Source: Emticicia aquatica (GTDB lineage: Bacteria; Bacteroidota; Bacteroidia; Cytophagales; Spirosomataceae). From it: a stretch of DNA of 64,000 nt. The DNA is taken from NCBI RefSeq assembly GCF_923079645.1, contig NZ_CAKLPY010000008.1, forward strand, positions 1-64,000, written 5' to 3'. The position numbers were made by a program, and so were the translations under genes. The notes under the pieces are model-generated. The model was not told the DNA's origin. It searched no databases and saw only the letters and a list, made by a program, of their open reading frames with translations. Shown here in pieces: positions 1,781 to 62,044 of this stretch (its first letter is position 1; each line of letters begins with the position of its first letter).

Positions 1781-2215
1781 CTACATTCTTTCCATGTACC
1801 AATTTAGTTCTTTTTCCATTTTTTGGTAACGAAAAATAGCGTTAATAATCTTTTGTAAACGCATAAAAGCGGTTTCGCTTTTCATGACATAATCGAAAGC
1901 TTTGTGGTGCATACAATTAACCGCCACATCTATTTTGTCTTGTGAAGAAAGGATAATTACAGGTATTTTGGCGTTATATTCTTGGATTTTATCCAATGTT
2001 TCGAGTCCATTCATGGCATTTTTATCAATACCATCAAGATGATAATCTAAAATTATTATATCGGGATTGTTTGATAAATGCTCAACGCAGTGTTCGCCAG
2101 TTGCGTATGCTTCAACGTCAAAATCGGCGTGTTGTAAGAATTCTATTTCTAGTGATTTCAAAAATACAGCGTCATCATCAACTAAAAATAGTTTTACTTT
2201 TGTTCCGTTTTTCAT
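1781..2215 (-). CDS. Single-domain response regulator (CheY-like)
   Basis: A 144-aa receiver domain with no output domain. It has the acidic pocket VDDD near residues 12-15, phosphoacceptor Asp57 in IIILDYHLDG, Ser90 in ILSSQD and the conserved Lys112 in YVMKSE. The C-terminal 25 residues form a helix (YQKMEKELNWYMERM) that could mediate docking or dimerisation. Its ATG overlaps the stop codon of the hybrid kinase by one base (TAATG), so it is translationally coupled and very probably receives phosphate from that kinase or its HPt domain. With no DNA-binding domain it must act through protein partners, possibly the neighbouring AraC proteins. Confidence 0.92.
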   Translation of the reverse strand: MKNGTKVKLFLVDDDAVFLKSLEIEFLQHADFDVEAYATGEHCVEHLSNNPDIIILDYHLDGIDKNAMNGLETLDKIQEYNAKIPVIILSSQDKIDVAVNCMHHKAFDYVMKSETAFMRLQKIINAIFRYQKMEKELNWYMERM

Positions 2216-4470
2216 TATTTAGGATTTTTAATTTTAAATAATTCTTCTTCTAGTTCTTCACAAGCTTGTACACAAACATTTTCGAGTTTAAAAACCAACT
2301 CTTGAATTTCGTTAGCTTGTTGTTGCGTGTTGGCATATTCTTGTATTTTTTTTGCCATATTTTCAAAATCTGGACTGATGCCCATAATTGAAAATGAAGG
2401 AATCATTTTATGAACAGCCGAGAGCAATAAAGTCCAATCATTATTTTGAAGACTTTTTTTCATCGCATCAATTAATGGCGGTGTTTGTTCTAAATAAAGC
2501 GAAATCATCTCTGACATTAACCTCGGATTAGACTTTGTGCGATGGCTTAAATACCTCAAATCCGTACATTTTATCTTTGTATTTGCATCACTTTCGAGAT
2601 GTTCGTTCGTTGTTTTTTTCATGTTAAAAGAGTTTTTCAAAAGACTCACTATTTTGGTGTACAACAACCGTTCATCCAAAGGTTTGGCTATGTAATCATT
2701 CATTCCAACGGCTTTACATTTGGCCAAATCAACGGTTGTTACATCGGCGGTTAGAGCAATAATCGGAATGCTTGAATTCATTTTTTTGCGGATATATTCG
2801 GTTGCTTCAAAGCCATTCATTTCGGGCATTTGTAAATCCATCAAAATAATATCATACGATTTGGTTGCTAACTTTTCGACGGCTATTTTTCCATTGGCGG
2901 TAATGTCACATTCAAAACCAAAGTCATCTAAAAGCGTTTTCATCAACAACTGATTAAGAGCAATGTCTTCAACAACTAATACCTTTATGTTTTTAATTTC
3001 GGTATCTAATTCTATAATTTCGTTAACAAATGTGGCATCGGCTTTGGTTTTACGGAATTGTAAGCAAAAGCTAAAGGTAGAGCCTTCGTCTGTTTTGCTT
3101 TGTACGCTGGTTTTACCGCCTTGCTGTTCTACCAATTGCTTGACAATAGCCAAACCTAATCCAGTTCCGCCATACAAACGAGCCGTTCCACTGGTGGCTT
3201 GCTGAAAATTATCAAAAATATTACTGATTTTGTTTTGAGGAATTCCGATACCCGTATCTGTAACCGAAAATTGAATAATTACATTTTCTGAATCTTCATT
3301 GATTAGGTCAACGCTAACAGTTATTAGTCCTTTTGTAGTAAATTTTACGGCATTACTTACCAAATTAAGTATTATTTGGTGTAAACGAACGGGGTCACCG
3401 AGCAAAACAACAGGAATGTTTTTGTCGTATTTTGAGATTAATTTTAGGTTTTTTTCTTGAATTTTTGTTTCAAATAAATGCAACATCGCCGAGATTGAAG
3501 AAGCCAAACGGAAAGGGATTTCTTCAAATGTCATTTTTCCTGCATCAACTTTTGCTAAGTCGAGAATATCATTGATTAATACAATTAAAGCATCGCCACT
3601 CATTTTAATGGCGGTCAAGTATTCCTTTTGTTTGGCCGACAAATCTGTTTTTAGTACTACTTTTGTAAAACCAATAATCGCATTCATCGGAGTTCTGATT
3701 TCATGGCTCATGTTTGACAAAAATTGCTGTTTGGCTTTTACGGCATCTTCTGCAATTTTTCTGGTTATTTCAGATTTACTTTGAGCTTCTTCGGCAATTG
3801 CCGTGGCTAGTTCGGCAAAAACTTTGGCTTCAATCAATTCTTTTTCAATTCTTTTTTGCTCTGTAATATCCCTTGCAACCACCACAACACCCAAAACTTT
3901 CCCTTGTTCGTCTTTATAAACTGAGCCATTAAATAGTACATCGGTCAATTTATGGTCTCGAATAGTGAGCGGATAATCAGCCACAAATCCTTTGGCAAAT
4001 ACTTCTTGGTAGCCCTTTCTGGCTTTATTTGGTTCAGTAAAATAGTTGAAAAAATCAGTCCCGATTAATTTTTCACGAGAAACTCCTGTAATATTGACCG
4101 AGGCGTTATTCATATCGGTTATTTTACCTTTGATGCTAATCGTAAAAAGTGGGTCTAAACTCGCTTCTATGAGACTCCGAGCATAATTTGCGATGATTAA
4201 TTCTGCTGCACGTTTTTCTTTTTCTTGATTCTGAAATGCTAATTCATTATTTGCTATGATTAGCTCATTGGCACGTTTTTCTTTCTCTATATTCTGAAAC
4301 GCCAATTCTTTTTTCGCAATTATTAATTCATTAGCACGTTTTTTCTTTTCTACGTTCAAAAAGGCCAATTCTTTATTGGCAATGATTAACTCATTAGCAC
4401 GTTTTTCCTTTTCTTTATTCTGAAAAGCAAGTGCTTTATTGGCAATGATTAACTCGTCCGATTTTATCAT
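2215..4470 (-). CDS. Hybrid sensor histidine kinase (coiled coil-PAS-HisKA-HATPase-REC-HPt)
   Basis: A 751-aa cytosolic kinase with no membrane segment. Residues 1-100 are about five tandem 21-residue coiled-coil repeats of the type RANELIIANKELAFQN-EKEK. A PAS domain follows (about 105-215, EASLDPLFTISIKGKITDMN), then HisKA with the phospho-His in FLSNMSHEIRTPMNAIIG, HATPase_c with GLGLAIVKQLVEQQGG, a receiver with acceptor Asp in DIILMDLQMPEMNG, and a C-terminal HPt-like domain (AVHKMIPSFSIMG). It is a full phosphorelay in one chain. It is 39 bp downstream of the AraC gene at 4510-5091 and overlaps the response regulator at 1781-2215. Its kinase and receiver segments are very close to those of the CheB-CheR hybrid at 49052-53392. 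Confidence 0.95.
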   Translation of the reverse strand: MIKSDELIIANKALAFQNKEKEKRANELIIANKELAFLNVEKKKRANELIIAKKELAFQNIEKEKRANELIIANNELAFQNQEKEKRAAELIIANYARSLIEASLDPLFTISIKGKITDMNNASVNITGVSREKLIGTDFFNYFTEPNKARKGYQEVFAKGFVADYPLTIRDHKLTDVLFNGSVYKDEQGKVLGVVVVARDITEQKRIEKELIEAKVFAELATAIAEEAQSKSEITRKIAEDAVKAKQQFLSNMSHEIRTPMNAIIGFTKVVLKTDLSAKQKEYLTAIKMSGDALIVLINDILDLAKVDAGKMTFEEIPFRLASSISAMLHLFETKIQEKNLKLISKYDKNIPVVLLGDPVRLHQIILNLVSNAVKFTTKGLITVSVDLINEDSENVIIQFSVTDTGIGIPQNKISNIFDNFQQATSGTARLYGGTGLGLAIVKQLVEQQGGKTSVQSKTDEGSTFSFCLQFRKTKADATFVNEIIELDTEIKNIKVLVVEDIALNQLLMKTLLDDFGFECDITANGKIAVEKLATKSYDIILMDLQMPEMNGFEATEYIRKKMNSSIPIIALTADVTTVDLAKCKAVGMNDYIAKPLDERLLYTKIVSLLKNSFNMKKTTNEHLESDANTKIKCTDLRYLSHRTKSNPRLMSEMISLYLEQTPPLIDAMKKSLQNNDWTLLLSAVHKMIPSFSIMGISPDFENMAKKIQEYANTQQQANEIQELVFKLENVCVQACEELEEELFKIKNPK
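4190..4470 (-). repeat. Tandem 63-bp repeats encoding kinase coiled coil
   Basis: About five in-frame copies of a 63-bp unit encode the 21-aa heptad-like repeats at the N-terminus of the hybrid kinase. The copies differ by a few substitutions. In-frame gain or loss of a unit would change coiled-coil length without breaking the gene. Confidence 0.8.
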
Positions 4471-4509: not shown

Positions 4510-5091
4510 TTAGTTGCTTTCATTAAAATCACCAATATTTTCGATTGGAATGCGTCGTTTTTCCTTCAATTGTTTGAAATGTGAGGGAGAAAGTCCCGTA
4601 ACTTTTTTAAACTGGCTTGACAAATGAGCAACACTGCTATAATTCATTTTATTGGCAATTTCAGTAATATTCATCTCTCCGTAAATAATCAATTCTTTGA
4701 TGCGTTCGGTTTTATGCGAAATAATAAACTGTTCGATTGTCATTCCTTGAACTTCCGAAAAAAGGTTTGCCAAGTAAGTATAATCGTGATCTAGCTTTGT
4801 GCTTATAAAATCAGAAAAATTTGTTTTAGGCAATTCATCAGCGTAATGAACCATTTCTATGATGACTTTTTTGACTTTTTCAATCAACATTGCTTTTTTA
4901 TCGTCCATCAATTCAAGGCCAGCAGCTAACAATTCTTTTTTTAGTCGTTCTCGCTGTATATCTGAGATATCTTCCATAATTTCTACAACACCCAAATCAA
5001 CCACGATAAAGTGGAGTTTAAGCTTTTTCAATACCTCTTTCACCATCATTTTGCAACGAGTACTGACCATGTATTTGATATATAGTTTCAT
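4510..5091 (-). CDS. AraC-family regulator with HMA-like N-terminal domain (copy 2)
   Basis: A 193-aa paralog of the regulator at 1106-1666 with the same layout. The N-terminus starts MKLYIKYMVSTRCKMMVKEV (HMA-like, with S-x-x-C-x-M in place of CxxC). A helical linker follows, then an AraC double helix-turn-helix with NYSSVAHLSSQFKKVTGLSP. It lies 46 bp after the broken cupin gene and 39 bp before the hybrid kinase, so an original operon order cupin, AraC, kinase, receiver, AraC is likely, driven by the now-decayed composite promoter at 5403-5467. Known AraC proteins bind two adjacent major grooves, which suits the 21-bp-spaced direct repeats of the composite promoters. Confidence 0.9.
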   Translation of the reverse strand: MKLYIKYMVSTRCKMMVKEVLKKLKLHFIVVDLGVVEIMEDISDIQRERLKKELLAAGLELMDDKKAMLIEKVKKVIIEMVHYADELPKTNFSDFISTKLDHDYTYLANLFSEVQGMTIEQFIISHKTERIKELIIYGEMNITEIANKMNYSSVAHLSSQFKKVTGLSPSHFKQLKEKRRIPIENIGDFNESN

Positions 5092-5402: not shown

Positions 5403-5467
5403 TAAAGGTGAGGATATTAATAGCTTAAATTTTATATAATTCTTAAAATTGTTTACATAATTCACAC
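5403..5467 (-). promoter_or_regulatory. Decayed copy f of the stress-regulon composite promoter
   Basis: On the minus strand the first half-site is intact (GTGTGAATTATGTAAA) and the 9-bp gap is kept. The second half-site is GAATTATATAAAA instead of the TTATGTAACA type, the next spacer is 20 instead of 21 bp, and the -7 box reads ACCTTTA instead of ACCTTTG. It lies 43 nt before the cupin pseudogene start. Confidence 0.6.
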
Positions 5468-7113: not shown

Positions 7114-7233
7114 TTTAATACCTTGCTAATAACTCATTTTTGATTTACCCATGAAAAAATACGGTAACAAATATTTTATATTTTCTTTTATCAATATAAA
7201 TATTAGTTGAAGCTAGGTATTTATAAAATTTCA

Positions 7234-10200
7234 ATGACAACTTCCAATGAATATTGTAATATGATGAAGATGCTACTTCTGATGCTTGCCATTATGGTAA
7301 GTTTTATTACGTTTTCGCAAAACGTTACTGTTAATCCCGGGGCTGGTTCTTACGCAGATTTATCGTCTGCATTTGCCGCCATTAATTTAGGCACACATAC
7401 TGGTGTGGTTACGGTAAGTATTGTTGGCAATACTGCTGAGCCAGCTGGTGGTGCAATTCTTAATGCCAGTGGGACGGGTGGTGCTTCTTACACATCTATT
7501 ACCATTTCTCCAAATGGTGGGGCTGCAAGAACAATTACTGGTGCTGCAACTGCGGGGTTGCCAATGATTGATTTAAATGGTGCCGATAATGTAACTTTTG
7601 ATGGATTAAATACTGGAGGGAATTCGCTTACTATTGAAAACACTACCGTGTCAGTTACATCGGGAACTTGTACATTACGTTTTGTTGGCGGTGCCACTTC
7701 TAACACCATTACAAGATGTTCTATTAAAGGTGCCAGCAATGCTTCTGTATCCACCAATGGTGCTACAATCATTTTCTCAATTGATGCCGTTACAGCAAAC
7801 GGTAACGACAACAATACCATTTCCAATTGTGATATCGGCCCTTCTGGTGCCAACCTGCCTACTAAAGCCATATTGGGCAATGGTTCTACTACCACTACGG
7901 CCATCGGTAACAGTGGTATCACCATCAATAACAATGACATTCACGACTATTTTGGAGCAGCAGTAACCAGTGCCGGAATTTCCACTAATGGTGGTTGTAA
8001 TACATGGAGTATTACCAATAACCGCTTTTATCAATCGGAAACCAGAACATGGACTACAGGTGCTCAACATAATGCAATAAATATTAGTAACACAACTGCC
8101 AATAGCGGTGCACAGGGATTTACCATTACGGGGAATATTGTTGGCTATGCTTCAAATACACAAACTGGAATATACACATTGACAGGTTCCAACGGTACTT
8201 TCCGTGGCATAGTCTTCAATGGTATTACCGCAGGTACAGTTTCCAACATTAATAATAATACGGTTGCTGCCGTTAGTGTAACCGGTGTTACATCAAGTGG
8301 TGTAAGCTCCGCTTCTCCTTTCATAGCCATTTACATAAACAATGGTGTGGCAAATACAAACAGCAATACTATCGGAAGCCAGTCAGCAACAGGTTCATTG
8401 GTTTATGCAACAAACTCTGCAGGTGCCGCTGATATGATGGGTTTCTTCAATTTCAGTAGTGATACTTGGACTGCAAACAACAATTTAATTGGAGGGATGA
8501 CGACTTCCAATGCGGGTACAGGAGCAGCCAATGCTTATGGTTTGCGTGTAAATACTACGTCAACGGTAACTACTACCCTGAATGGAAACACGATTGGGGG
8601 TACCGTAGCCAATTCCATTCAAAGTACGTCAACGGCAGCGAGTGCACAGGTGGCTGGTATTTTTATTTCAACGTCTTTTGCAACAGTCTCTAATAATACA
8701 ATCAGAAATCTTACGAATGCAGGCGGAACCGGAACAACAACAGCCGCATCGGTTGTGGGTATTGATTTTATCGGTGCAACGCCGGTTAACAACGCAGTAC
8801 AGAATACGATTTTTAACCTGAGCAACACCAATACTACATTAGCTACGGTTGTAACAGGTATTCAATTTACAGGTGCAACTGGAAATGTCGTGGAAAGTAA
8901 CCTGATTCACAGCCTGACGTCTGCAACAAACAGCACAACTGCAGAAGTAAATGGAATCAGGGTTGGGAGTGGTACTACCACCTTTCTTAACAATATGATT
9001 GCCATTGGTGCGAGCATTACCAATGCCATTGGTACGGCTGCCAGCAACTCGAACGTGAGCGGTGTTAATGGTATTAACGAAGTCCTGGGAACAAATAGTT
9101 TCTTTCATAACAGTGTTTATATAGGCGGGGCCCCAACAGCAGGTGTGGGGGCATCTTATGCCTTTAACGGAACCCAAACTACCATTACCCGCAGTTTCCA
9201 AGATAATATTTTCTTTAATGCAAGAAGTAACAGCGGGGCAACAGGTAAAAACTATGCAGTGAAAATAAATGGTACCACTCCCAATCCAACCGGCCTAACC
9301 ATTAACAACAACATTTATTTTGCCAACGGAACCGGTGGAGTATTTGGATTTTTCAATTCTTTAGATGTAGCCAATCTTGCGGCCTGGAAAACGGCTGTTG
9401 GGCAGGATGCTGTAAGCTTTGAAAGCAACCCTCTATACATTGACCCCACCAATGCAACACCTGACCTGCATCTCCATCCAACCTCTGCTACAGTAGCAGA
9501 GGGCAATGGGGTTGATGTGGGTGTAGTGAATGATTATGACGGGCAAACAAGGGCTGGTTTAACACCAGTTGATATTGGTGCTGATGCTGGTAATTTTATT
9601 GGGGTTGATTTAGCCCCCCCCGTAATCACTTATACCCCTTTAGGGTTTAGTTGCAATACAGCCAACAGGACACTTAACGGCGTTACCATAACAGACGTTT
9701 CTGGTGTACCTACAGCGGGTGCATTGCAGCCCAGGATTTACTATCGCAAAAATGCGGGTGCCTGGTTCTCATCGCAAGGTGTATTGGCCAGTGGAACTGC
9801 CACCAACGGTACCTGGAACTTTACCATTGTTGCAGCCGATATGGGCGGTTTGGTCATTAGCAACAACGTACAGTATTATGTCATTGCACAGGATATTGTG
9901 CCAACACCAAATATTGGTTCAAACTCAGGTGCAGGCCTGGTAGCTACAAATGTTAATACAGTTACCACAGCCCCAACAACACCAAATAATTACAATGTGG
10001 TGAGCACTATCAGCGGTACATATACAGTGGGTGCTACAGGAGATTACCCCACAATTACAGCGGCGTTTAATGCATACAACAACAGTTGTCTGGGTGGTCC
10101 GGTTGTATTCAGCTTGATTGATGCAGCATATACAAACACTTCCGATACCCTGCGAGCCAATCCGTTTGCCAGTAACTTCAATACACTTACCATAAGGCCT

Positions 10201-12876
10201 GCTGCTGCGGGAACCACCATTACAGGTAACATGAATGGCCCTGCCATTGTATTGCTGGATGCCGATTTTATTACCATTGATGGTTCATCTGCCAGCTCAA
10301 TTGCCAGTCCCTGTGCTGTGGGCGGAAATGCAACTATCAGGGATTTGACCATTACCAATACTAACGTGGGTACATCGGCTGGTGTAATATCTATAGCAAC
10401 CGGTGTAAATGGTGCACAGAACAATACCGTTAAAAATGTGAATATCCTTGGGCAGGACCCCACAACCACATTGATTGGTATTGCTGTGGGTGGTAATACA
10501 ATGGGTACTACCGGGGCAGATAATGACAATATTACCATAGACAACTGCAGTGTAAGAAGGACTATTTTTGGTATTTATAATGCCGGTAGCAGTGCCGCCA
10601 ACCGCAACACGGGCAGTAAAATAATCCGTAACGAACTTTCAGCCACTACCACCAACCGCATCAGGCGGGTAGGCATCATATTATTCAACAATGATGGTAT
10701 TGAAGTTTCCTATAACAGCATTGGTGGTATCGAAACCGACGAAAGTGCAGATGCAATAGGTATAGCTCTTGGTACTCAGGCCATTGACCTTACAAATGTC
10801 ACTTCGGGAGAAGTGGTGAATGCAGTGGTTGCCAACAACAAAATTAATGGTGTTGCCAGCCTAAATACCACTGGTTTTTCAGCGGCAGGTATTACTGTTG
10901 CAGGAGGTAATTCGGGTGCAAACACCATCTATAATAATATGATAACAGGTGTAATAGCTCCTTCAACAGCACCAGATATACTTGCAGGTATTTACGTAAT
11001 TGGAGCTGCAGGGGCAAATACCCGTTTGTACTTTAATTCAATTTCTATGACAGGTGACAGGGGTGCCGTAACAGTGCAATCGCCATCTTATGGTATTGCC
11101 ATTACCGGTACTGACCCTACAGTTGATTTACGAAACAATATTTTATATACAACTCAAATTGCCTCAGGTGGTGGTGCAGATGCCAAAAGCTATGCAATAG
11201 GTATGGTAAGCACTACGTTTGCCAACCTCAATTCCAATTACAATGCCTTCTGGAGCACAGGCACCAACGATGGTGGATTTCGTTCGGGATCTTTAGGTAT
11301 AGCTGCTGGTACCAGTTATGCTACATTGGCTGGATGGGCTGCTGCAGTTGCCAATGATGCCAATTCAATAGAGACAGATCCGTTATTTAATAACCCGCTT
11401 AGTAATCTTCATTTAACTACATTTGAGCCGCTGGCTACACCTTTAGAAGGTATTACAAATGATTGTGATTGTGAAACGCGTAGTGCAACAACTCCAGATA
11501 TCGGAGCGGATGAGCTTATAAATTGCTCTGTTACCCTTAGTTCCCCTACGGGTACCAATAACCAAACGGTATGTATCAATACGGCAATAACCGCTATTAT
11601 TTATAACACCACCGGTGCCACGGGCATTGGCGTTGTCACCGGCTTACCAGGAGGTGTAAGTGCAAATTGGGCAACCAATGTGCTCACTATCAGCGGTACG
11701 CCAACTGCATCGGGTACGTTTAATTACATTATCCCCTTGACTGGCGGCCCTTGCACAACAGGAACGATAACCGGTACAATAACGGTAAATGCCATTCCCA
11801 CCGCTCCAACCATTACAGCCAGCGGACCAACCACGTTTTGTAATGGTGGCTCTGTTACCTTAAATTCAAATGTAGGTAATAATAATGCGTTAAATTTTGT
11901 AAAAACGAGTAGTCAATACGTTAGCGTTCCGCATAGTGCCAGTATCAATTTGGGAGCAACATTTACGATGGAAGCTTGGGTAAAGTACTCAGGGCAAAAT
12001 GTAACAATTGTAGATAAAGGCGATTACGACTTTTTATGGATGCTGAATCCTGACCCTTTAAGTTCGGGGTTGAATACCTTGAAAATGGGTTTTTACACAA
12101 AAAATACAGGAGTATGGTCTTATTCAACGGGTACCGTTTCAGAAAATACGTGGACGCATGTGGCTATTACCCTCGACGCAGGTATACTTACTTTTTATGT
12201 CAATGGAGTAGCTGCAGGGACTGCCTCAGTTACTTTTTCACAAGATGCACTGGAAATGAATATTGGCAGACAACAACCCACTTATTGTATCTGTAATCAT
12301 TTTAATGGTAGCATGGATGAGTTACGACTTTGGAATATTGTAAGAACTCCGGCCCAAATGCTGACCAATATGAACAGCACGATTCCGACCAATAGTACAG
12401 GATTGGTAGCCTATTATAAGTTTGATGAAGGCTCGGGCACAACCACTGCTGATGCTACTGGGAATGGCAATAATGGAACATTGGTAAACAGCCCTACTTG
12501 GGAAGCACCTGCTACATCGCCTGTCAATGCCGTTGTTTGGTTGCCTGGTGGAGCAACAACACCAAGTATTGTTGTTAATAATGCTGGTACCTATACAGCT
12601 ACAGTTACTAATGGTTATGGTTGCAGCACTTCATCAAGCACCATTGTAAATGTCAACTCAAATGCAGCTTTAGTAACCCTCACAAGCCCAACTGATGATT
12701 ATTCAACGGGGATAATTCTGAAAACAGCATCGAGTGTAAATGGTAACATAACGGCTACCAATAAAGTAACTGGCACGGCCAAAGTTGATTATAAAGCCAC
12801 GTCAATTCAACTAAATGCAGGTTTTAAGGCTGATAACGGAACAGTATTTAATGCAGTCGTGGGGGGGTGTAATTGA
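7234..12876 (+). CDS. Giant secreted surface protein: parallel beta-helix, Ig-like and LamG domains
   Basis: About 1,880 aa. A signal sequence ([20 protein letters not shown]) is followed by two long blocks rich in N, T, G and A with right-handed beta-helix rungs (repeats such as NNTI, ITNN, VSNN). Each block is closed by a similar motif ([16 protein letters not shown] and [15 protein letters not shown]). Next come an Ig-like region ([20 protein letters not shown]), a concanavalin A/LamG-type domain (about residues 1560-1740, [24 protein letters not shown]) and a conserved Cytophagales-type C-terminus ([17 protein letters not shown]). It is probably a cell-surface adhesin or polysaccharide-binding protein; the C-terminal motif may serve sorting, which is inference. 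The TTG at 7207 is a possible earlier start. GC is clearly higher than in the flanks, suggesting transfer. It contains C8 and G7 tracts. Confidence 0.9.
9614..9621 (+). repeat. C8 homopolymer tract inside the surface-protein gene
   Basis: Eight consecutive C within the coding frame near codon 794, at the join between the first beta-helix block and the next domain. A slip of one base would truncate the protein, so it is a candidate contingency tract. A G7 run at 12861-12867 lies at the last codons and would only alter the C-terminus. Confidence 0.6.
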
Positions 12877-13288: not shown

Positions 13289-13888
13289 TTATTTTAGTTG
13301 GTTTTTCTGCAACCAGTTAAAAAGATTCGACTCAGAAGAGCTATATCTTTTAGCTATGAATTTTTTAGTTGAACCATTACTGAGAAGAGCTTCAATCTCA
13401 ATTTTATATTTATCCAATTTACTTTTCCCAGCTCCAACAGGTCTTCCAAGTTTTACCCCATTGGCTTTTTTAGTTTGCAGTGCCTCTTTTGTTCTTTTAG
13501 AAATCAAGTCTCTTTCTATTTCTGCAACCATTGAAAATACCATTGCCATCACTTTACTCTGAATGGTATCGTCCAATTGCCAGTTTCCTTTAACGGTATA
13601 AATCTTGATTCCTTTCTGAGTGGCTATCGAAATTATTTCCATGCACTCAAGCATACTTCTACCCAATCGAGAAAATTCACTTAATAGAATGGTATCTCCC
13701 GAAGTAAGCGTTTCAACAATATCTCCAATTTTTCTTTCTCTCCAATGAATTCTGCCCGAAGCCTTTTCTTCAACGAATTCAACTTTACCTAAATTTTTAT
13801 CATTGGCAAGGTGTAGTAGTTGAGATTTGTTTTTTTCAAGGTCTTGGTCAATGGTTGAAACCCTTAAATAAGCGACATTTCTTGGCAT
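13289..13888 (-). CDS. Serine recombinase, resolvase/invertase family
   Basis: A 199-aa protein of the usual length for small serine recombinases. The N-terminal catalytic domain has nucleophile Ser11 in YLRVSTIDQD, the conserved arginines in LSEFSRLGRS, and the long E-helix region (AEIERDLISKRTKEAL). The C-terminus holds a helix-turn-helix (TKKFIAKRYSSSESNLFNWL). It cuts and rejoins DNA at short dyad sites. It is divergent from the transposase at 14005, with a palindrome between them, so it is most simply the cointegrate resolvase of the decayed transposon. An invertase acting on nearby DNA is the alternative. Confidence 0.9.
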   Translation of the reverse strand: MPRNVAYLRVSTIDQDLEKNKSQLLHLANDKNLGKVEFVEEKASGRIHWRERKIGDIVETLTSGDTILLSEFSRLGRSMLECMEIISIATQKGIKIYTVKGNWQLDDTIQSKVMAMVFSMVAEIERDLISKRTKEALQTKKANGVKLGRPVGAGKSKLDKYKIEIEALLSNGSTKKFIAKRYSSSESNLFNWLQKNQLK

Positions 13889-18975: not shown

Positions 18976-19311
18976 TCAATTTTGGTTCAGCGAATGTGTA
19001 TTTATTTCATCAAAAATAGTCGGTACTCTCCGACGAGAGATTTGAATCACTCGTTTGTTATTCAAAACAAGGTATTTTAACTGATAATTGATACTTTTTA
19101 TATACTCTTTGCAAATTATAAATGACTTACTCGGACGACAAAAATTGGTTTTTGGTAAAATATTTTCAAAACTTTTGAGCGATGCGGCTGCCATTACCTG
19201 TTTTCCAGATGAAAGATATAGAAGTGTATAGTTGCCATGAGCTTCTAAAAATAAAATAGCATTGGTTTCAATACTTTGGTTGCGGGTAATCTTGATGATA
19301 GTTGTGGACAT
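18976..19311 (-). CDS. LytTR-family DNA-binding protein
   Basis: A 111-aa protein made only of a LytTR domain: IKITRNQSIETNAILFLEAH near the start, GNYTLLYLSSGKQVMAAASL, then FCRPSKSFIICKEYIKSI and the closing VIQISRRRVPTIFDEI. These are the standard strand and turn blocks of the family. There is no receiver or membrane part, so any signal must come from elsewhere. It is divergent from the gene cluster that starts at 19566 and could regulate it, but no direct-repeat LytTR site was identified. Confidence 0.85.
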   Translation of the reverse strand: MSTTIIKITRNQSIETNAILFLEAHGNYTLLYLSSGKQVMAAASLKSFENILPKTNFCRPSKSFIICKEYIKSINYQLKYLVLNNKRVIQISRRRVPTIFDEINTHSLNQN

Positions 19312-28813: not shown

Positions 28814-31033
<2,220 letters not shown>

Positions 31034-46352: not shown

Positions 46353-46890
46353 CCCATAAGTGAACGGTTTTCACTTATAGCATTTTTAGCACTTTTTTGA
46401 GTGAAAGTACAAATAAAATAATCGTAATTTTCAACCGATTTTCCCATAAGTGAACGGTTTTCACTTATGGCATTTTTAGCACTTTTTTGAGTAAACAGAC
46501 GGCTAAAATAATCCTAATTTTCAACCGCTTTTCTCATAAGTGAACGGTTTTCACTTATGGAGTTTTTAGAACTTTTTTGAGTGAAAGTACAAATAAAGTA
46601 ATCGTAATTTTCAACCGATTTTCCCATAAGTGAACGGTTTTCACTTATGGAGTTTTTAGCACTTTTTTTGAGTGAAAGTATAAATAAAATAATCGTAATT
46701 TTCAACTGCCTTCTCTATAAGTGAACGGTTTTCACTTATGGCATTTTTAGCACTTTTTTGAGTGAAAGTACAAATAAAGTAATCGTAATTTTCAACCGAT
46801 TTTCCCATAAGTGAACGGTTTTCACTTATGGAGTTTTTAGCACTTTTTTGAGTGAAAGAACCAATAAAGTAATCGAAAAATCCAACCAAT
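46353..46890. repeat. Six tandem 90-bp repeats with palindromic core (likely centromere/operator)
   Basis: Six units start near 46353, 46443, 46533, 46623, 46714 and 46804. Each opens with a perfect inverted repeat, CCATAAGTGA, a 7-base ACGGTTT centre and TCACTTATGG (the outer bases vary in units 1, 3 and 5), followed by a conserved tail with ACTTTTTTGAGTG. The period is 90 bp, with 91 bp once because of an extra T. The array lies between parA and the iteron origin, as expected for a partition site bound by ParB or ParA. Open frames seen here on the minus strand are only repeats of 30 codons. Confidence 0.92.
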
Positions 46891-46906
46891 TACTTTTATG
46901 TATTTA

Positions 46907-47219
46907 TATAACATTTTTGGGGGAGTAAAATTGACTTAAAAATAACCAAATTGATTAAGATACCCCAAAAATGTTATATTTAAGTTTGTGTCATTTATAA
47001 AACATAACTATTTGATAATAAACACTTTATGCAAATTTCAAAAAAAATTTAATTTTACATATATTCTAACAAACCACGTAACTACTTGATTATAAGGCAA
47101 TTGAGACTAAATACTTATTACCAACTAAGTATAACAAAATTGGGAGTTAAGTCATATTACATACTTTTATAAACAATTCCCCATTTTTGTTATATTTCTT
47201 ATTTATAACAAAAATGGGG
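46907..47219. repeat. Dispersed iterons, both orientations
   Basis: Five copies of the iteron core TATAACA-(A/T)n-TGGGG occur: forward at 46907-46922, 47130-47145 and 47204-47219, inverted at 46963-46978 and 47179-47194. Inverted pairs are typical of Rep autoregulation or handcuffing sites of iteron plasmids. Confidence 0.85.
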
Positions 47220-47403
47220 CGGCGGAGATGTTATTTTAAATAAATCCTGCTTTTTCATCTATTATTTTTTGTTTTAATTTCAATATTATTTAAAAAAACA
47301 TCAACAAAAAATTGTGTTTGTTGTCTTTTAATCTTTTTAATTATCTTTTTAATCTTTTTCGCTACCCATAAATGCTTGATTATCAGTTTATTATGAGCTT
47401 TAT

Positions 47404-47543
47404 TATAACAAAAATGGGGAATACTATAACATTTTTGGGGATTGTTATAACAAAAATGGGGAATACTATAACAAAATTGGGGAATATTATATCAATTTTG
47501 GGGATTGTATAACAAAATTGGGGCAAATATAACATTTTAAAAT
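47404..47543 (+). repeat. Iteron array of the replication origin (oriV)
   Basis: Six direct iterons TATAACAAAAATGGGG (variants with ATTTTT, AAAATT or TATATC) start at 47404, 47425, 47446, 47467, 47488 and 47508; a seventh, degraded one is at 47528. The period is 21 bp, two helical turns. The array lies about 45-180 bp upstream of the initiator gene, which is the classic layout of a Rep_3-type origin; AT-rich DNA lies on its left (47220-47400). Confidence 0.95.
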
Positions 47544-53617: not shown

Positions 53618-53683
53618 GTGTGAATGTTGTAAGTCTTTTATGAAATTTTGTAACACTTAGGCTAGCCATGTAAATTACCTTTG
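53618..53683 (+). promoter_or_regulatory. Stress-regulon composite promoter, copy a
   Basis: GTGTGAATGTTGTAAG (53618-53633), 9 bp, AAATTTTGTAACA (53643-53655), 21 bp, then ACCTTTG (53677-53683, part of TACCTTTG, a TAnnTTTG -7 box). The two TTGTAA cores are 21 bp apart. It lies 50 nt upstream of the ATG at 53734. No -33 TTTG is present at the normal place; the second half-site occupies it. Confidence 0.8.
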
Positions 53684-53733: not shown

Positions 53734-54021
53734 ATGAAAAATACTTTTTTCTTAATCAGTATGATAGGTATCGTGCTAATGTTCAATGCTTGCACACCTT
53801 ATGTTAGTACGCGTCCACCAGATGTTGTTACTACTCGCCCGATGAGTCCGAGCAATTCTCATGTTTGGGTTGAAGGAAATTGGGTCTATAATCGTGGAAC
53901 TCACTCTTATACAAGAAATAATGGCTATTGGTCAAAACCCAATCGTGGACGTTCGTATAAAGAAGGACAATGGAGAACAACTCGACGTGGAAATCATTGG
54001 GTTCAAGGCCGATGGAGATAA
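53734..54021 (+). CDS. YXWGXW-repeat-like lipoprotein
   Basis: A 95-aa protein with a lipoprotein signal (IGIVLMFNAC, Cys about residue 20). The mature part is short and rich in W, R and N with repeated blocks such as HVWVEGNWVYN, NNGYWSKP, KEGQWRTT and HWVQGRWR, in the style of YXWGXW-repeat proteins found in the envelope of many bacteria. It is preceded by composite promoter a and followed by a hairpin, so it is a single-gene member of the stress regulon. The molecular role is unknown. Confidence 0.85.
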   Translation: MKNTFFLISMIGIVLMFNACTPYVSTRPPDVVTTRPMSPSNSHVWVEGNWVYNRGTHSYTRNNGYWSKPNRGRSYKEGQWRTTRRGNHWVQGRWR

Positions 54022-55895: not shown

Positions 55896-55961
55896 GTGTG
55901 AATGTTGTAAGGATTCTGCTAAATTATGTAACAGATTTAGTCCCAAAAATGCTAACCTTTG
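55896..55961 (+). promoter_or_regulatory. Stress-regulon composite promoter, copy b
   Basis: GTGTGAATGTTGTAAG (55896-55911), 9 bp, AAATTATGTAACA (55921-55933), 21 bp, ACCTTTG (55955-55961). Identical spacing to copy a. It lies 106 nt upstream of the GH130 gene. Confidence 0.8.
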
Positions 55962-56067: not shown

Positions 56068-57108
56068 ATGATAAAAGTTAATAAAGAAGGGGTACTGCTC
56101 GAAAAAACTTCACTTGCCTTTGAAGATGAAGGCGTATTAAACCCAGCAGCCATTCGAGAAGGGGAGTATGTTCATATTTTTTATCGGGCGGTAAGCAAAG
56201 GCAATTATTCGAGTATTGGTTATTGCAAACTCAAAGGGCCGTTTACAATAATTGAACGGTCTGAAACGCCCGTTTTATTACCTCAATTTGAATACGAATC
56301 GCATGGTATTGAAGACCCACGCATAGTAAAAATTGATGATTTATACTATCTCAGTTATACGGCTTATGATGGTGTAAATGCTCTTGGGGCTTTGGCAGTT
56401 TCAAAAGACTTAAAAAATTGGGAAAAGCAAGGAATATTAGTACCACAACTGACTTATGATGAATTTAATTATTTGATTGAATTTAATAATAAGCCAAACG
56501 AAAAGTATAATCGTTATAACGCTCATGACTATATTTTTGAAAATAGGGGCAAAAAAGTACTTCTTTGGGATAAAAATTTGATATTCTTCCCCAAACGCAT
56601 TCACAACAAATTATACTTTTTACACCGAATAAAACCAGATATTCAAATCATTGTTGGCGTGGAAAACTTACAAGAACTCACCCCTGAATTTTGGCAAAAT
56701 TATTTTCTAAAATTCAATGAAAACATTGTTCTTTCACCAAAATACGACCACGAAGTAAGCTACATTGGTGGTGGTTGTCCGCCTATTGAAACGGCTGAAG
56801 GCTGGTTATTGATTTATCATGGTGTGAAAGATAGTATTAAAGGCTATGTTTACTCTGCTTGTGCGGCATTACTTGATTTGGAAGACCCAAGAATAGAACT
56901 TGCTCGACTGCCATATCCACTCTTTGAACCCGAAAAAATATGGGAACTCAAAGGTGAAGTAAATAATGTGTGTTTTCCTACTGGAACAGCTCTGTTCGAC
57001 GATACCCTTTATATATATTATGGAGCTGCTGATGAACGTATTGCCTTTGTTACAGTGAGTATTTCAGCATTATTGACTGAATTATTGTTGAATCCTAAAG
57101 AAAAGTAA
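56068..57108 (+). CDS. GH130-family glycoside phosphorylase/hydrolase
   Basis: A 346-aa five-bladed propeller. Family blocks are LNPAAIREGEYVHIFYRAVS near the start, SHGIEDPRIVKIDDLYYLSYTAYDG with the catalytic Asp of GIEDPR, IGGGCPPIETAEGWLLIYHGV, and FPTGTALFDDTLYIYYGAAD at the end. GH130 enzymes phosphorolyse or hydrolyse beta-mannosides (for example mannose-beta-1,4-glucose or mannan oligomers). There is no signal peptide, so it is cytosolic. Control by composite promoter b places it in the stress regulon, suggesting use of a storage or envelope mannoside; a glycosyltransferase lies at 62046. Confidence 0.9.
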   Translation: MIKVNKEGVLLEKTSLAFEDEGVLNPAAIREGEYVHIFYRAVSKGNYSSIGYCKLKGPFTIIERSETPVLLPQFEYESHGIEDPRIVKIDDLYYLSYTAYDGVNALGALAVSKDLKNWEKQGILVPQLTYDEFNYLIEFNNKPNEKYNRYNAHDYIFENRGKKVLLWDKNLIFFPKRIHNKLYFLHRIKPDIQIIVGVENLQELTPEFWQNYFLKFNENIVLSPKYDHEVSYIGGGCPPIETAEGWLLIYHGVKDSIKGYVYSACAALLDLEDPRIELARLPYPLFEPEKIWELKGEVNNVCFPTGTALFDDTLYIYYGAADERIAFVTVSISALLTELLLNPKEK

Positions 57109-58575: not shown

Positions 58576-59022
58576 TTACTTTACGTTCTTAACGGTTAAA
58601 TCTTTAAACGCTTTTCCTAACTCGTCCATGTCATGGTTAAATTCGGTTTTGAATTTTGCCCAATTTTCTTTTCCATTTTCTTTGTAATCATCTAATTTCT
58701 TTTTCAAATCAGTGTTTTTTTCTTCTAATTCATTGATTTTCTTTTGATATTCGGCTTTAGCTGTTTTCTTTTCTGTAGATATTCTTTCGTTAAAATCTTT
58801 GATGCTAGCTTCATTTGTAGCAATTTTATCGGCCGATTCCTTTTTATAAGAAGCCATATCAGCCATGTATTCTTCATTGGCTTTTTCTAAATCTTTATTG
58901 GCATCAGCCACTTCAGTTTGGGCGTTTTCTACCTTCTCGGCTGGCGTGTTACTATTGCAACTTAAAATAATTGTACTCGTAATAAACGTAAATATTCCTA
59001 GTGCTAAAATTGATTTTTTCAT
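58576..59022 (-). CDS. Coiled-coil lipoprotein
   Basis: A 148-aa protein. A lipoprotein signal (FTFITSTIILSCNS, Cys about 22) is followed by a long charged coiled coil (VADANKDLEKANEEYMADMA, KKINELEEKNTDLKKKLDDY). It is probably an outer- or inner-membrane-anchored periplasmic stress protein. It follows the 63-aa gene and precedes the porin-like gene in the operon under composite promoter d. Confidence 0.85.
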   Translation of the reverse strand: MKKSILALGIFTFITSTIILSCNSNTPAEKVENAQTEVADANKDLEKANEEYMADMASYKKESADKIATNEASIKDFNERISTEKKTAKAEYQKKINELEEKNTDLKKKLDDYKENGKENWAKFKTEFNHDMDELGKAFKDLTVKNVK

Positions 59023-59062: not shown

Positions 59063-59254
59063 TTACCCTTGATTTAATCTTTTTAATTCGTTTTTTGTTT
59101 TTTCAAGTTGGGTTTCGAGGGTTTCCAACAAGGAATTTTTATCGCAATCGACCAACATGATATTGTCATTGCTGAGTATCAGAATAGATTGCTCTTTATT
59201 TAATTTTCTGATACGGTCATTTTGTTTGCCTGTTAAATCAATAAAATTCACCAT
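59063..59254 (-). CDS. Hypothetical 63-aa protein, first gene of promoter d operon
   Basis: A small soluble protein with a strand-rich first part (QSILILSNDNIMLVDC) and a C-terminal coiled coil (LETLETQLEKTKNELKRLN). No family is recognised. Its start is 36 nt downstream of the ACCTTTG box of composite promoter d, which supports it as a real gene and the head of the run 59254 to 57346. Confidence 0.7.
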   Translation of the reverse strand: MVNFIDLTGKQNDRIRKLNKEQSILILSNDNIMLVDCDKNSLLETLETQLEKTKNELKRLNQG

Positions 59255-59289: not shown

Positions 59290-59355
59290 CAAAGGTGAAT
59301 ATTCCTCAAATAATATGTGTTACACAATATTTTTAAAATGTTACATCATTCACAC
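59290..59355 (-). promoter_or_regulatory. Stress-regulon composite promoter, copy d
   Basis: On the minus strand GTGTGAATGATGTAAC, 9 bp, ATATTGTGTAACA, 21 bp, ACCTTTG (complement of 59290-59296). Same geometry as copies a, b, c and e. It drives the operon 59254-57346. Confidence 0.8.
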
Positions 59356-60318: not shown

Positions 60319-60651
60319 TCAAGCGATTTCGTTATTCGCTTCTCTTTTTGAATCATCAAATTTAGATTTTCCTTTGGCAACAATGCTGTCCACTTCGTGC
60401 ATAGCATTATCGTATTTAGATTTTCCTTTAGTAACCATTCCTTCTACTTCGTGCATCGTATTTTGATATTTTTGATTAAGAGAGTCAACAAAATCATCAA
60501 ATTTGTCTTTTAAACCATCAGCATAATCTTCGCTTTTGTTGAGTATTTGTTTTCTAGTTCTTGAGCCTTTTTCTGGAGCAAACAAAATACCTACTACTGC
60601 ACCTGCGGCAACACCTGCCAATACACCTAATAATACTTTACCTGAGTTCAT
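60319..60651 (-). CDS. YtxH-domain protein
   Basis: A 110-aa protein with the YtxH start: a glycine/alanine-rich membrane helix (LLGVLAGVAAGAVVGILFAP) followed by EKGSRTRKQI. The C-terminal part is a charged coiled coil containing two near-copies of MHEVEGMVTKGKSKYDNA and MHEVDSIVAKGKSKFDD. YtxH proteins are general-stress proteins of unknown mechanism. It lies between the 52-aa membrane protein gene and the holin-like gene. Confidence 0.9.
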   Translation of the reverse strand: MNSGKVLLGVLAGVAAGAVVGILFAPEKGSRTRKQILNKSEDYADGLKDKFDDFVDSLNQKYQNTMHEVEGMVTKGKSKYDNAMHEVDSIVAKGKSKFDDSKREANNEIA

Positions 60652-60681
60652 GGTCGTTGTTTTTAATGTTAAAAAAGATAT

Positions 60682-60840
60682 TTACTTGTTAATTCTATTT
60701 CCCTGAATGACTCTTAATAAAATTGAAATCACTGCAATGACCAATAGTACATGGATGATTCCGCCAGCACTATAAGCAAAAAAACCGATTGCCCAAAAGA
60801 GGATTAAAATCACGGCGATAATATAAAGTAGATTTCCCAT
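60682..60840 (-). CDS. lmo0937-family small membrane protein
   Basis: A 52-aa protein with two membrane helices: MGNLLYIIAVILILFWAIGF, then a short AYSAGGIIH turn and a second helix VLLVIAVISILLRVI. This is the pattern of the lmo0937 family of tiny membrane proteins, frequent beside YtxH in Bacteroidota stress operons. Start is the ATG complementary to 60838-60840 and stop at 60682. It is 11 nt after the secreted basic protein gene. Confidence 0.85.
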   Translation of the reverse strand: MGNLLYIIAVILILFWAIGFFAYSAGGIIHVLLVIAVISILLRVIQGNRINK

Positions 60841-60851
60841 GGTGGTTATGT

Positions 60852-61355
60852 TTAAGATTTACGTACTCGATTACGTTTACCTTGTTTTTTATTAGTCTTT
60901 TTGTTGTTGTTACGTTCCTTTCGGTCGTTTTGCCATTTACCATGTTCTGGATGGTCTTTGTTTTCAAAATACCTTGAATCTTGGCTATTACGAATAGATT
61001 TTTGGTCGGAACGCCCTTTGTAGCTCGCATATTTTGTTCGGTAAGATTGGGCATTTCGATAAGGCTTATAAGTATTTACCACAACTTTATGACCACTATA
61101 TAAGTCGAAATTACGGTATTGTGATGGCAAATCTCTTGTAAAAACCCAATGACCTCGATTCAAATATATATATTGTCGATTGGGTACATTGTAAAAAACA
61201 TCAATGTCGGGCATATAATAATACTCAACATGGTCGTATCCTTCTGGTCCCCAAATTGGTTGTGAACCATGATTAACGTTTGTTCCAACGCGGACCTGAG
61301 CGAAAGTTATAAAAAAGCTCGAAAACAAAATGGCTGTAAAAATTACTTTTTTCAT
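60852..61355 (-). CDS. Secreted basic protein of unknown function
   Basis: A 167-aa protein with a signal peptide (KKVIFTAILFSSFFITFAQ). A tyrosine-rich first half (HVEYYYMPDIDVFYNVPNRQ, IYLNRGHWVFTRDLPSQYR) looks folded; the second half is a very basic, low-complexity tail (RNNNKKTNKKQGKRNRVRKS). The combination suggests binding to an anionic polymer such as LPS or DNA, which is inference. It is in the operon under composite promoter c. Confidence 0.8.
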   Translation of the reverse strand: MKKVIFTAILFSSFFITFAQVRVGTNVNHGSQPIWGPEGYDHVEYYYMPDIDVFYNVPNRQYIYLNRGHWVFTRDLPSQYRNFDLYSGHKVVVNTYKPYRNAQSYRTKYASYKGRSDQKSIRNSQDSRYFENKDHPEHGKWQNDRKERNNNKKTNKKQGKRNRVRKS

Positions 61356-61384
61356 GGGAGTAAACCTTTGTTTTTGAGGCTTTA

Positions 61385-61828
61385 TTATCTATAAAACTGG
61401 TCTGTTGATAATATTATTTGAGTGCCAGGATATTGTGTATTAGCTTCATCTTCTGCAGTAATAAATATTTTGGTTGGCTTGAATGCAGAAACGTTTTCAA
61501 ACGCAGCTTTTAATTGCTTTGACATCATGTTTGTTGAACTCTGAATTTGTCCAATATTTTTTGTAATATTTTCATCTGTAACCATCCAAATGACATACGT
61601 TTGTTTTGGTGGTTGTAAGCGTTGTACTTCAGCCAAATTTGAAATATGTATTTTGATTGAGTAATTTTTGTTATTGTCTTTTTTTACTTCCACATAACCT
61701 CTTGCTGCTGGAACGGTAGGAGAGATTAAAAAATTAATCTTTTTAGCACAAGAAGCAAAAGAAAAAATAGTCAAAGTTACTAAAACACCTAAAAAGGCAT
61801 TTCTAAATAGGGTGGATTTACGATTCAT
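61385..61828 (-). CDS. Lipoprotein, hypothetical
   Basis: A 147-aa protein with a lipoprotein signal (LGVLVTLTIFSFASC, Cys about 27) and one predicted beta-sandwich domain (RGYVEVKKDNNKNYSIKIHI, TYVIWMVTDENITKNIG, FKPTKIFITAEDEANTQYPG). The pattern resembles anti-sigma-factor-like or DUF-type domains of Bacteroidota envelope proteins, but I cannot name it. It is the first full-size gene under composite promoter c. Confidence 0.8.
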   Translation of the reverse strand: MNRKSTLFRNAFLGVLVTLTIFSFASCAKKINFLISPTVPAARGYVEVKKDNNKNYSIKIHISNLAEVQRLQPPKQTYVIWMVTDENITKNIGQIQSSTNMMSKQLKAAFENVSAFKPTKIFITAEDEANTQYPGTQIILSTDQFYR

Positions 61829-61978: not shown

Positions 61979-62044
61979 CAAAGGTGCAGCTAATAGCCGT
62001 TATTTGTGTTACATAATATTGGCTATTAGTTGCAACATTCACAC
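61979..62044 (-). promoter_or_regulatory. Stress-regulon composite promoter, copy c
   Basis: On the minus strand GTGTGAATGTTGCAAC, 9 bp, ATATTATGTAACA, 21 bp, ACCTTTG (complement of 61979-61985). It lies just after the stop of the glycosyltransferase at 62046 and drives the operon 61942-59506. Confidence 0.8.

Follow-up and report, generated by a model that had tools for sequence, protein, structure and literature searches.

A 66-bp composite promoter element clustered on a Bacteroidota plasmid and its probable HMA-AraC readers

A 66-bp element recurs upstream of genes of envelope and stress type in the window analysed here, which spans bases 1-64000 of the 76,901-bp contig C8. It is very probably a promoter that depends on an activator, with the small HMA-AraC proteins of neighbouring genes as its readers, a view built on the sites, their spacing, their linkage to araC, their co-occurrence with AraC genes, the target genes and the predicted fold of the proteins. 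As judged from the genomes compared, the regulon is real, phylum-wide and mobile, and its proposed regulator is well supported.

Anatomy of the element

The initial annotation had placed five intact sites at 53618-53683 (+), 55896-55961 (+), 59290-59355 (−), 61979-62044 (−) and 1046-1111 (−), and all five were found there letter for letter. Their blocks stand in a fixed register, namely GTGTGAAT, a TGTAA-type core, TGTAACA, a gap of 21 bp and ACCTTTG. In order, the sites precede a YXWGXW-type lipoprotein gene (53734-54021, +, 95 aa); a GH130 gene of the mannoside phosphorylase family (56068-57108, +, 346 aa); a 63-aa gene (59063-59254), followed in the same target operon by a lipoprotein gene of the sll1863 stress-response family (58576-59022, −; 46.8 bits, cut-off 35); the gene 61385-61828 and the next genes down to YtxH (60319-60651), a target operon (60319-61828, −) coding for a lipoprotein, a 167-aa protein, an lmo0937-family membrane protein and YtxH; and a gene for a small membrane protein (676-1041, −). 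Of these targets, described earlier as small envelope or stress genes, the GH130 gene is not small. A sixth copy, counted in the window but given no coordinates, is best placed as a degenerate variant at 5403-5467 (−), upstream of a 71-aa ORF and the araC-A operon; its second half-site reads TATAAAA and lies 20 bp from ACCTTTA. With leave-one-out matrices, the five sites scored 38-43 bits each while the highest-scoring other position of the window reached 15-18, a separation of at least 20 bits for each, and Markov-shuffled windows reached a maximum of 10 with the full matrix.

For comparison, 80 loci (1.295 Mb) were gathered through alignment of the AraC proteins, i.e. they were found via AraC, from Flavobacterium, Lutibacter, Aquimarina, Empedobacter, Pontibacter, Dyadobacter, Prolixibacteraceae, Paludibacter and MAGs, some of the latter labelled Ignavibacteria or Melioribacteraceae. 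The pattern derived from the five window sites matched 195 times in these loci with up to 6 mismatches; the reversed pattern matched once and five permutations never, ruling out a chance origin. The consensus of 157 sites reads AAATGTGTGAATkATGTAACTTwTT, then AAAGTTrTGTAACACTT, then CACCTTTGT, and both half-sites share AATnnTGTAA, making them a direct repeat. As first proposed from the window, the two TGTAA cores are rigidly spaced: across the 80 loci the core-to-core distance is 21 bp, with almost no other value. The gap from the half-sites to the −7 box is less strict. Invariant in the five intact sites, as had been claimed, it is 20 bp instead of 21 in a natural minority of sites elsewhere, frequently at the promoter of araC itself. 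A half-site repeat of about 21 bp adjoining the RNA polymerase site is a trait of AraC-type class II promoters, and the element has it.

The ACCTTTG block had been read as the Bacteroidota −7 box TAnnTTTG. In the 157 sites the A (99%) and the conserved TTTG agree with that reading; the first T does not, being present in only 15% and replaced by C in 62%, which might be a sign of a weak, activator-needing promoter. A TTG starting at positions 32-38 was found in none of the 157 sites, so the sigma-A −33 TTG/TTTG box is absent there, as expected if the second half-site takes its place. The earlier view of a composite promoter of activator type is supported. The TAnnTTTG box of F. psychrophilum spans −12 to −5 (PMC9723704), from which element position 71 would be expected as +1; G occupies this position in 43% of sites versus 15% downstream (p = 5e-17). 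The prevalence of C in place of the first T, along with an unusually fixed ACC, could also point to recognition of ACCTTTG and the blocks before it by an alternative sigma factor. This is very unlikely, given that the A and TTTG fit the sigma-A box, that direct repeats 21 bp apart are an activator feature, and that no Sigma70_r2 gene lies on the plasmid, compared to 25 on other contigs.

Distribution and target genes

Contig C8 ends in an exact repeat of its first 127 bp and therefore most probably represents a circular replicon of 76,774 bp. It codes for a Rep3 replication initiator, a plasmid marker (47586-48992, +), just upstream of which the region 46514-47535 (−) contains short repeated frames (KSAKNSISENRSLMGKSVENYDYF...) resembling replication iterons. 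A resolvase/invertase-like gene (13289-13888, −; by eye) adjoins the gene for a 1889-aa protein (7207-12876), and a catalase-peroxidase-like gene (28814-31024, −; by eye) lies elsewhere on the plasmid, away from the element cluster.

Scanning of the whole 4.94-Mb genome with the half-site pattern (up to 3 mismatches) returned 14 matches, 11 of which are credible promoters; the other three (L009, L013 and L014), which are without a −7 box, were set aside. Nine of the 11 credible copies lie on C8 and two on the chromosome (contig C1). Those on C8 comprise the six in the window and three beyond it (64765-64830, 68057-68122 and 69561-69626), and all nine fall within the 34-kb arc 49052-76774-5853; that 9 of 11 elements occupy 0.7% of the genome is not chance. 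The scope of the regulon had to be corrected to that of a plasmid cluster: across the chromosome, a spread of sites at many stress genes was not seen. With most of its copies on the plasmid, the regulon is mobile and not genome-wide.

Clustering on a plasmid would also be expected of a mobile or recently duplicated repeat devoid of any regulatory role. We give that explanation practically no weight: the blocks are conserved while spacers and flanks are unrelated among copies, the loci come from many genera, and start codons lie at a median of 37 nt 3′ of the −7 box. In wider scans, the 66-bp pattern (up to 3 mismatches) occurs in 31 of the 150 family genomes and in 10 of the 247 genomes of the phylum sample, with zero control matches in both scans, and matches tend to cluster on a few contigs. 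A plasmid of Runella rosea, identified by way of AraC, encodes one AraC of the family and has no large stress island in its annotated 40 kb.

Across the loci, the targets (with names given partly by eye) include AraC, an Ig-like lipoprotein, the 63-aa protein, OmpA-type proteins, lmo0937-family and other small membrane proteins, GH130, beta-barrels, an MlaE transporter, YtxH, BON and prohibitin-like proteins. Small membrane proteins of the 676-1041 type also follow elements elsewhere, including in one genome without a close AraC. Further targets on the plasmid are Mla ABC systems, a universal stress protein, L,D-transpeptidases and OmpA. These gene families are what the label of a putative stress regulon refers to. 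To our knowledge, little is known of stress regulation in Bacteroidota. In the largely open-access papers searched, nothing on this system was found under the HMA-AraC family, Bacteroidetes YtxH/CsbD stress genes or the motif, in agreement with the earlier claim of an apparently undescribed regulon.

HMA-AraC proteins as candidate readers

The initial annotation had named the two AraC-type proteins encoded in the window for a test of DNA binding, and the analysis supports them as likely readers of the element. araC-A (4510-5091, −, 193 aa) and its paralogue araC-B (1106-1666, −, 186 aa) code for a predicted HMA-like domain joined to a C-terminal AraC double helix-turn-helix domain (PF12833, 58-61 bits, cut-off 33.6), which aligns with solved AraC-type domains at Z 11-14. 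Linkage, autoregulation and co-occurrence all point to these proteins. The element at 1046-1111 starts on the last codon and stop of araC-B (GTG TGA), and an element starts likewise on the end of araC in over a dozen other genomes. An element lies upstream of araC in 47 of the 80 loci, mostly about 90 bp before the start, according to a matrix trained partly on sites of those loci; the count of 195 matches is free of such training. araC is also targeted more often than any other gene (52 sites in 44 loci), so that the araC genes would belong to their own regulon and form an autoregulated switch.

Co-occurrence was assessed in 74 family genomes chosen to include all positives, a close AraC being one of at least 60% identity. 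Elements were present in 25 of 26 genomes with a close AraC versus 6 of 48 others (p = 5e-13), and in the phylum sample 7 of the 10 genomes with elements have a close AraC (p = 2e-7); since the genomes are related and the 74 were picked to hold all positives, these p values are only guides. A few genomes depart from the rule. In G340, G117 and G122 elements are present and an HMA-AraC was not found, and G160 and G165 share the same target genes with only a 36% paralogue that has a weak element nearby. Such cases would suit a scheme in which AraC is a mere member of the regulon and another, unlinked regulator binds the element. We consider this scheme unlikely, as it leaves aside the element on the araC stop codon, the autoregulation and the co-occurrence, as well as the paralogous operators that paralogues carry at the same place (see below); moreover, most of these exceptional genomes are drafts.

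LytTR-domain proteins were another candidate, since they too recognise direct repeats with a period of about two turns. LytTR-only genes adjoin both chromosomal sites (L016:371-691 and L017:1763-2104; by eye), and the plasmid codes for a LytTR-domain-only protein at 18976-19311 (−). That copy lies far outside the element cluster, and no relative of it occurs in the 80 element loci, making binding by a LytTR protein extremely improbable.

Between the two araC genes lies a gene for a hybrid histidine kinase (2215-4470, −), and a receiver-only response regulator is encoded at 1781-2215 (−); both are candidate signal inputs. Loose relatives of the two occur in 57-61 of the 80 loci, those of the hybrid kinase in 61. 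The receiver was rejected as a binder of the element, no DNA-binding domain having been found in it.

For the favoured reading, with the HMA-AraC proteins as readers, we infer binding, activation, the sigma factor and the start site as follows. Two AraC-type units would bind the direct repeat formed by GTGTGAATnATGTAA and, 21 bp on, AATTrTGTAACA, thereby covering about −70 to −33. Occupying the place of the −33 box, they would bring RNA polymerase, carrying the primary sigma factor, to a weak CACCTTTG −7 box, and the transcripts would have a short leader. With the araC genes inside their own regulon, the resulting autoregulated switch would drive envelope and stress-type genes carried as a set on a plasmid or island. 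The signal perhaps comes from the co-oriented kinase and receiver genes, or from a ligand of the HMA-like domain.

Distant paralogues, the N-terminal domain and known systems

AlphaFold2 predicted a beta-alpha-beta-beta-alpha arrangement for the AraC N-terminal domain (pLDDT 85). The nearest solved relatives of residues 1-65 are the copper and gold chaperones GolB, Atx1, CopZ and MerP at Z 7-8, a range in which values below 8 can reflect a common arrangement, the fold sought being beta-alpha-beta-beta-alpha-beta. No Pfam HMA match was obtained for the AraC proteins. Forty distant AraC paralogues (41-54% identity) were fetched regardless of motif. Their loci gave best motif scores of up to 27 versus a reversed-control maximum of −7, and 12 of the 40 contain the TGTAA repeat with its spacing and −7 box, nine of them within 35 bp of the araC stop; two distant operators lie 240-295 bp from araC. 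Distant operators have AAAAT where GTGTGAAT stands in the stress clade. The recognition helix of HTH2 is the least diverged part between the clades (0.07 versus 0.2-0.3 elsewhere), in keeping with the shared TGTAA half. HTH1, which faces the upstream box in MarA and AraC, differs, though its divergence does not exceed that of the remaining protein. The genome studied here encodes a third HMA-AraC paralogue (L238, G000:C1:1668099-1668683), of MVCDRC type; a variant operator lies at the stop codon of its gene.

The two clades are split by one branch (SH-aLRT 98, in a tree whose alignment included the Cys/Ser trait column) and differ in a loop, MVSxRC (stress clade) versus MVCxRC (distant clade): its third residue is Ser in 78 of 78 stress-clade proteins and Cys in 44 of 44 distant ones. 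A CxxC metal site is thus absent from the stress clade, where all 78 proteins have Ser-x-x-Cys. Among the genes behind distant araC operators are some for HMA proteins and one for a copper-type P-ATPase (L200, L209, L218 and L234; by eye). The loop, the tree and these neighbours suggest that the stress clade is an offshoot of a family of metal-type regulators and has lost one ligand. We tentatively entertain, without leaning towards it, a broader picture: a phylum-wide family of copper-chaperone-like/AraC fusions whose operator often lies at their own stop codon, and of which one clade, of single origin, lost the first Cys (Cys to Ser) and runs a mobile, autoregulated envelope-stress programme on Bacteroidota plasmids and islands.

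Operator, probable regulator and targets are here defined together from sequence, with spacing and expected start given to the base. The programme sits on a plasmid in this genome and is patchy elsewhere in the family, and could therefore amount to a tolerance trait that can be transferred. A predicted metal-chaperone-like fold is tied to AraC regulators, and one residue separates two clades with different operators.

The closest parallel is AraC at araBAD (araI1-I2) of Escherichia coli, and AraC/XylS class II promoters generally, where a half-site direct repeat of about 21 bp, which we take to be comparable to that of the element, likewise sets its downstream half at the place of the −35/−33 box for an AraC-type DNA-binding domain. 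Unlike araBAD, the element has another half-site sequence and a Bacteroidota −7 box, its proposed readers have an HMA-like domain in place of the sugar-binding one, and the regulon is one of several envelope and stress operons. With Bacteroidota sigma-A promoters (PMC9723704) the element shares the A and TTTG of the −7 box and the enrichment of G at the expected start, but its first T is mostly C, it has no −33 TTG and its upstream blocks lie at a fixed distance. The N-terminal domain may resemble the HMA metallochaperones GolB, Atx1, CopZ and MerP in the predicted fold of residues 1-65, and the paralogues keep an MxCxxC-type loop; it differs from them in being fused to an AraC domain and, in the stress clade, in having Ser for the first Cys. 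The proposed mechanism follows a known scheme, AraC class II-like activation, with regulator and regulon in a new form.
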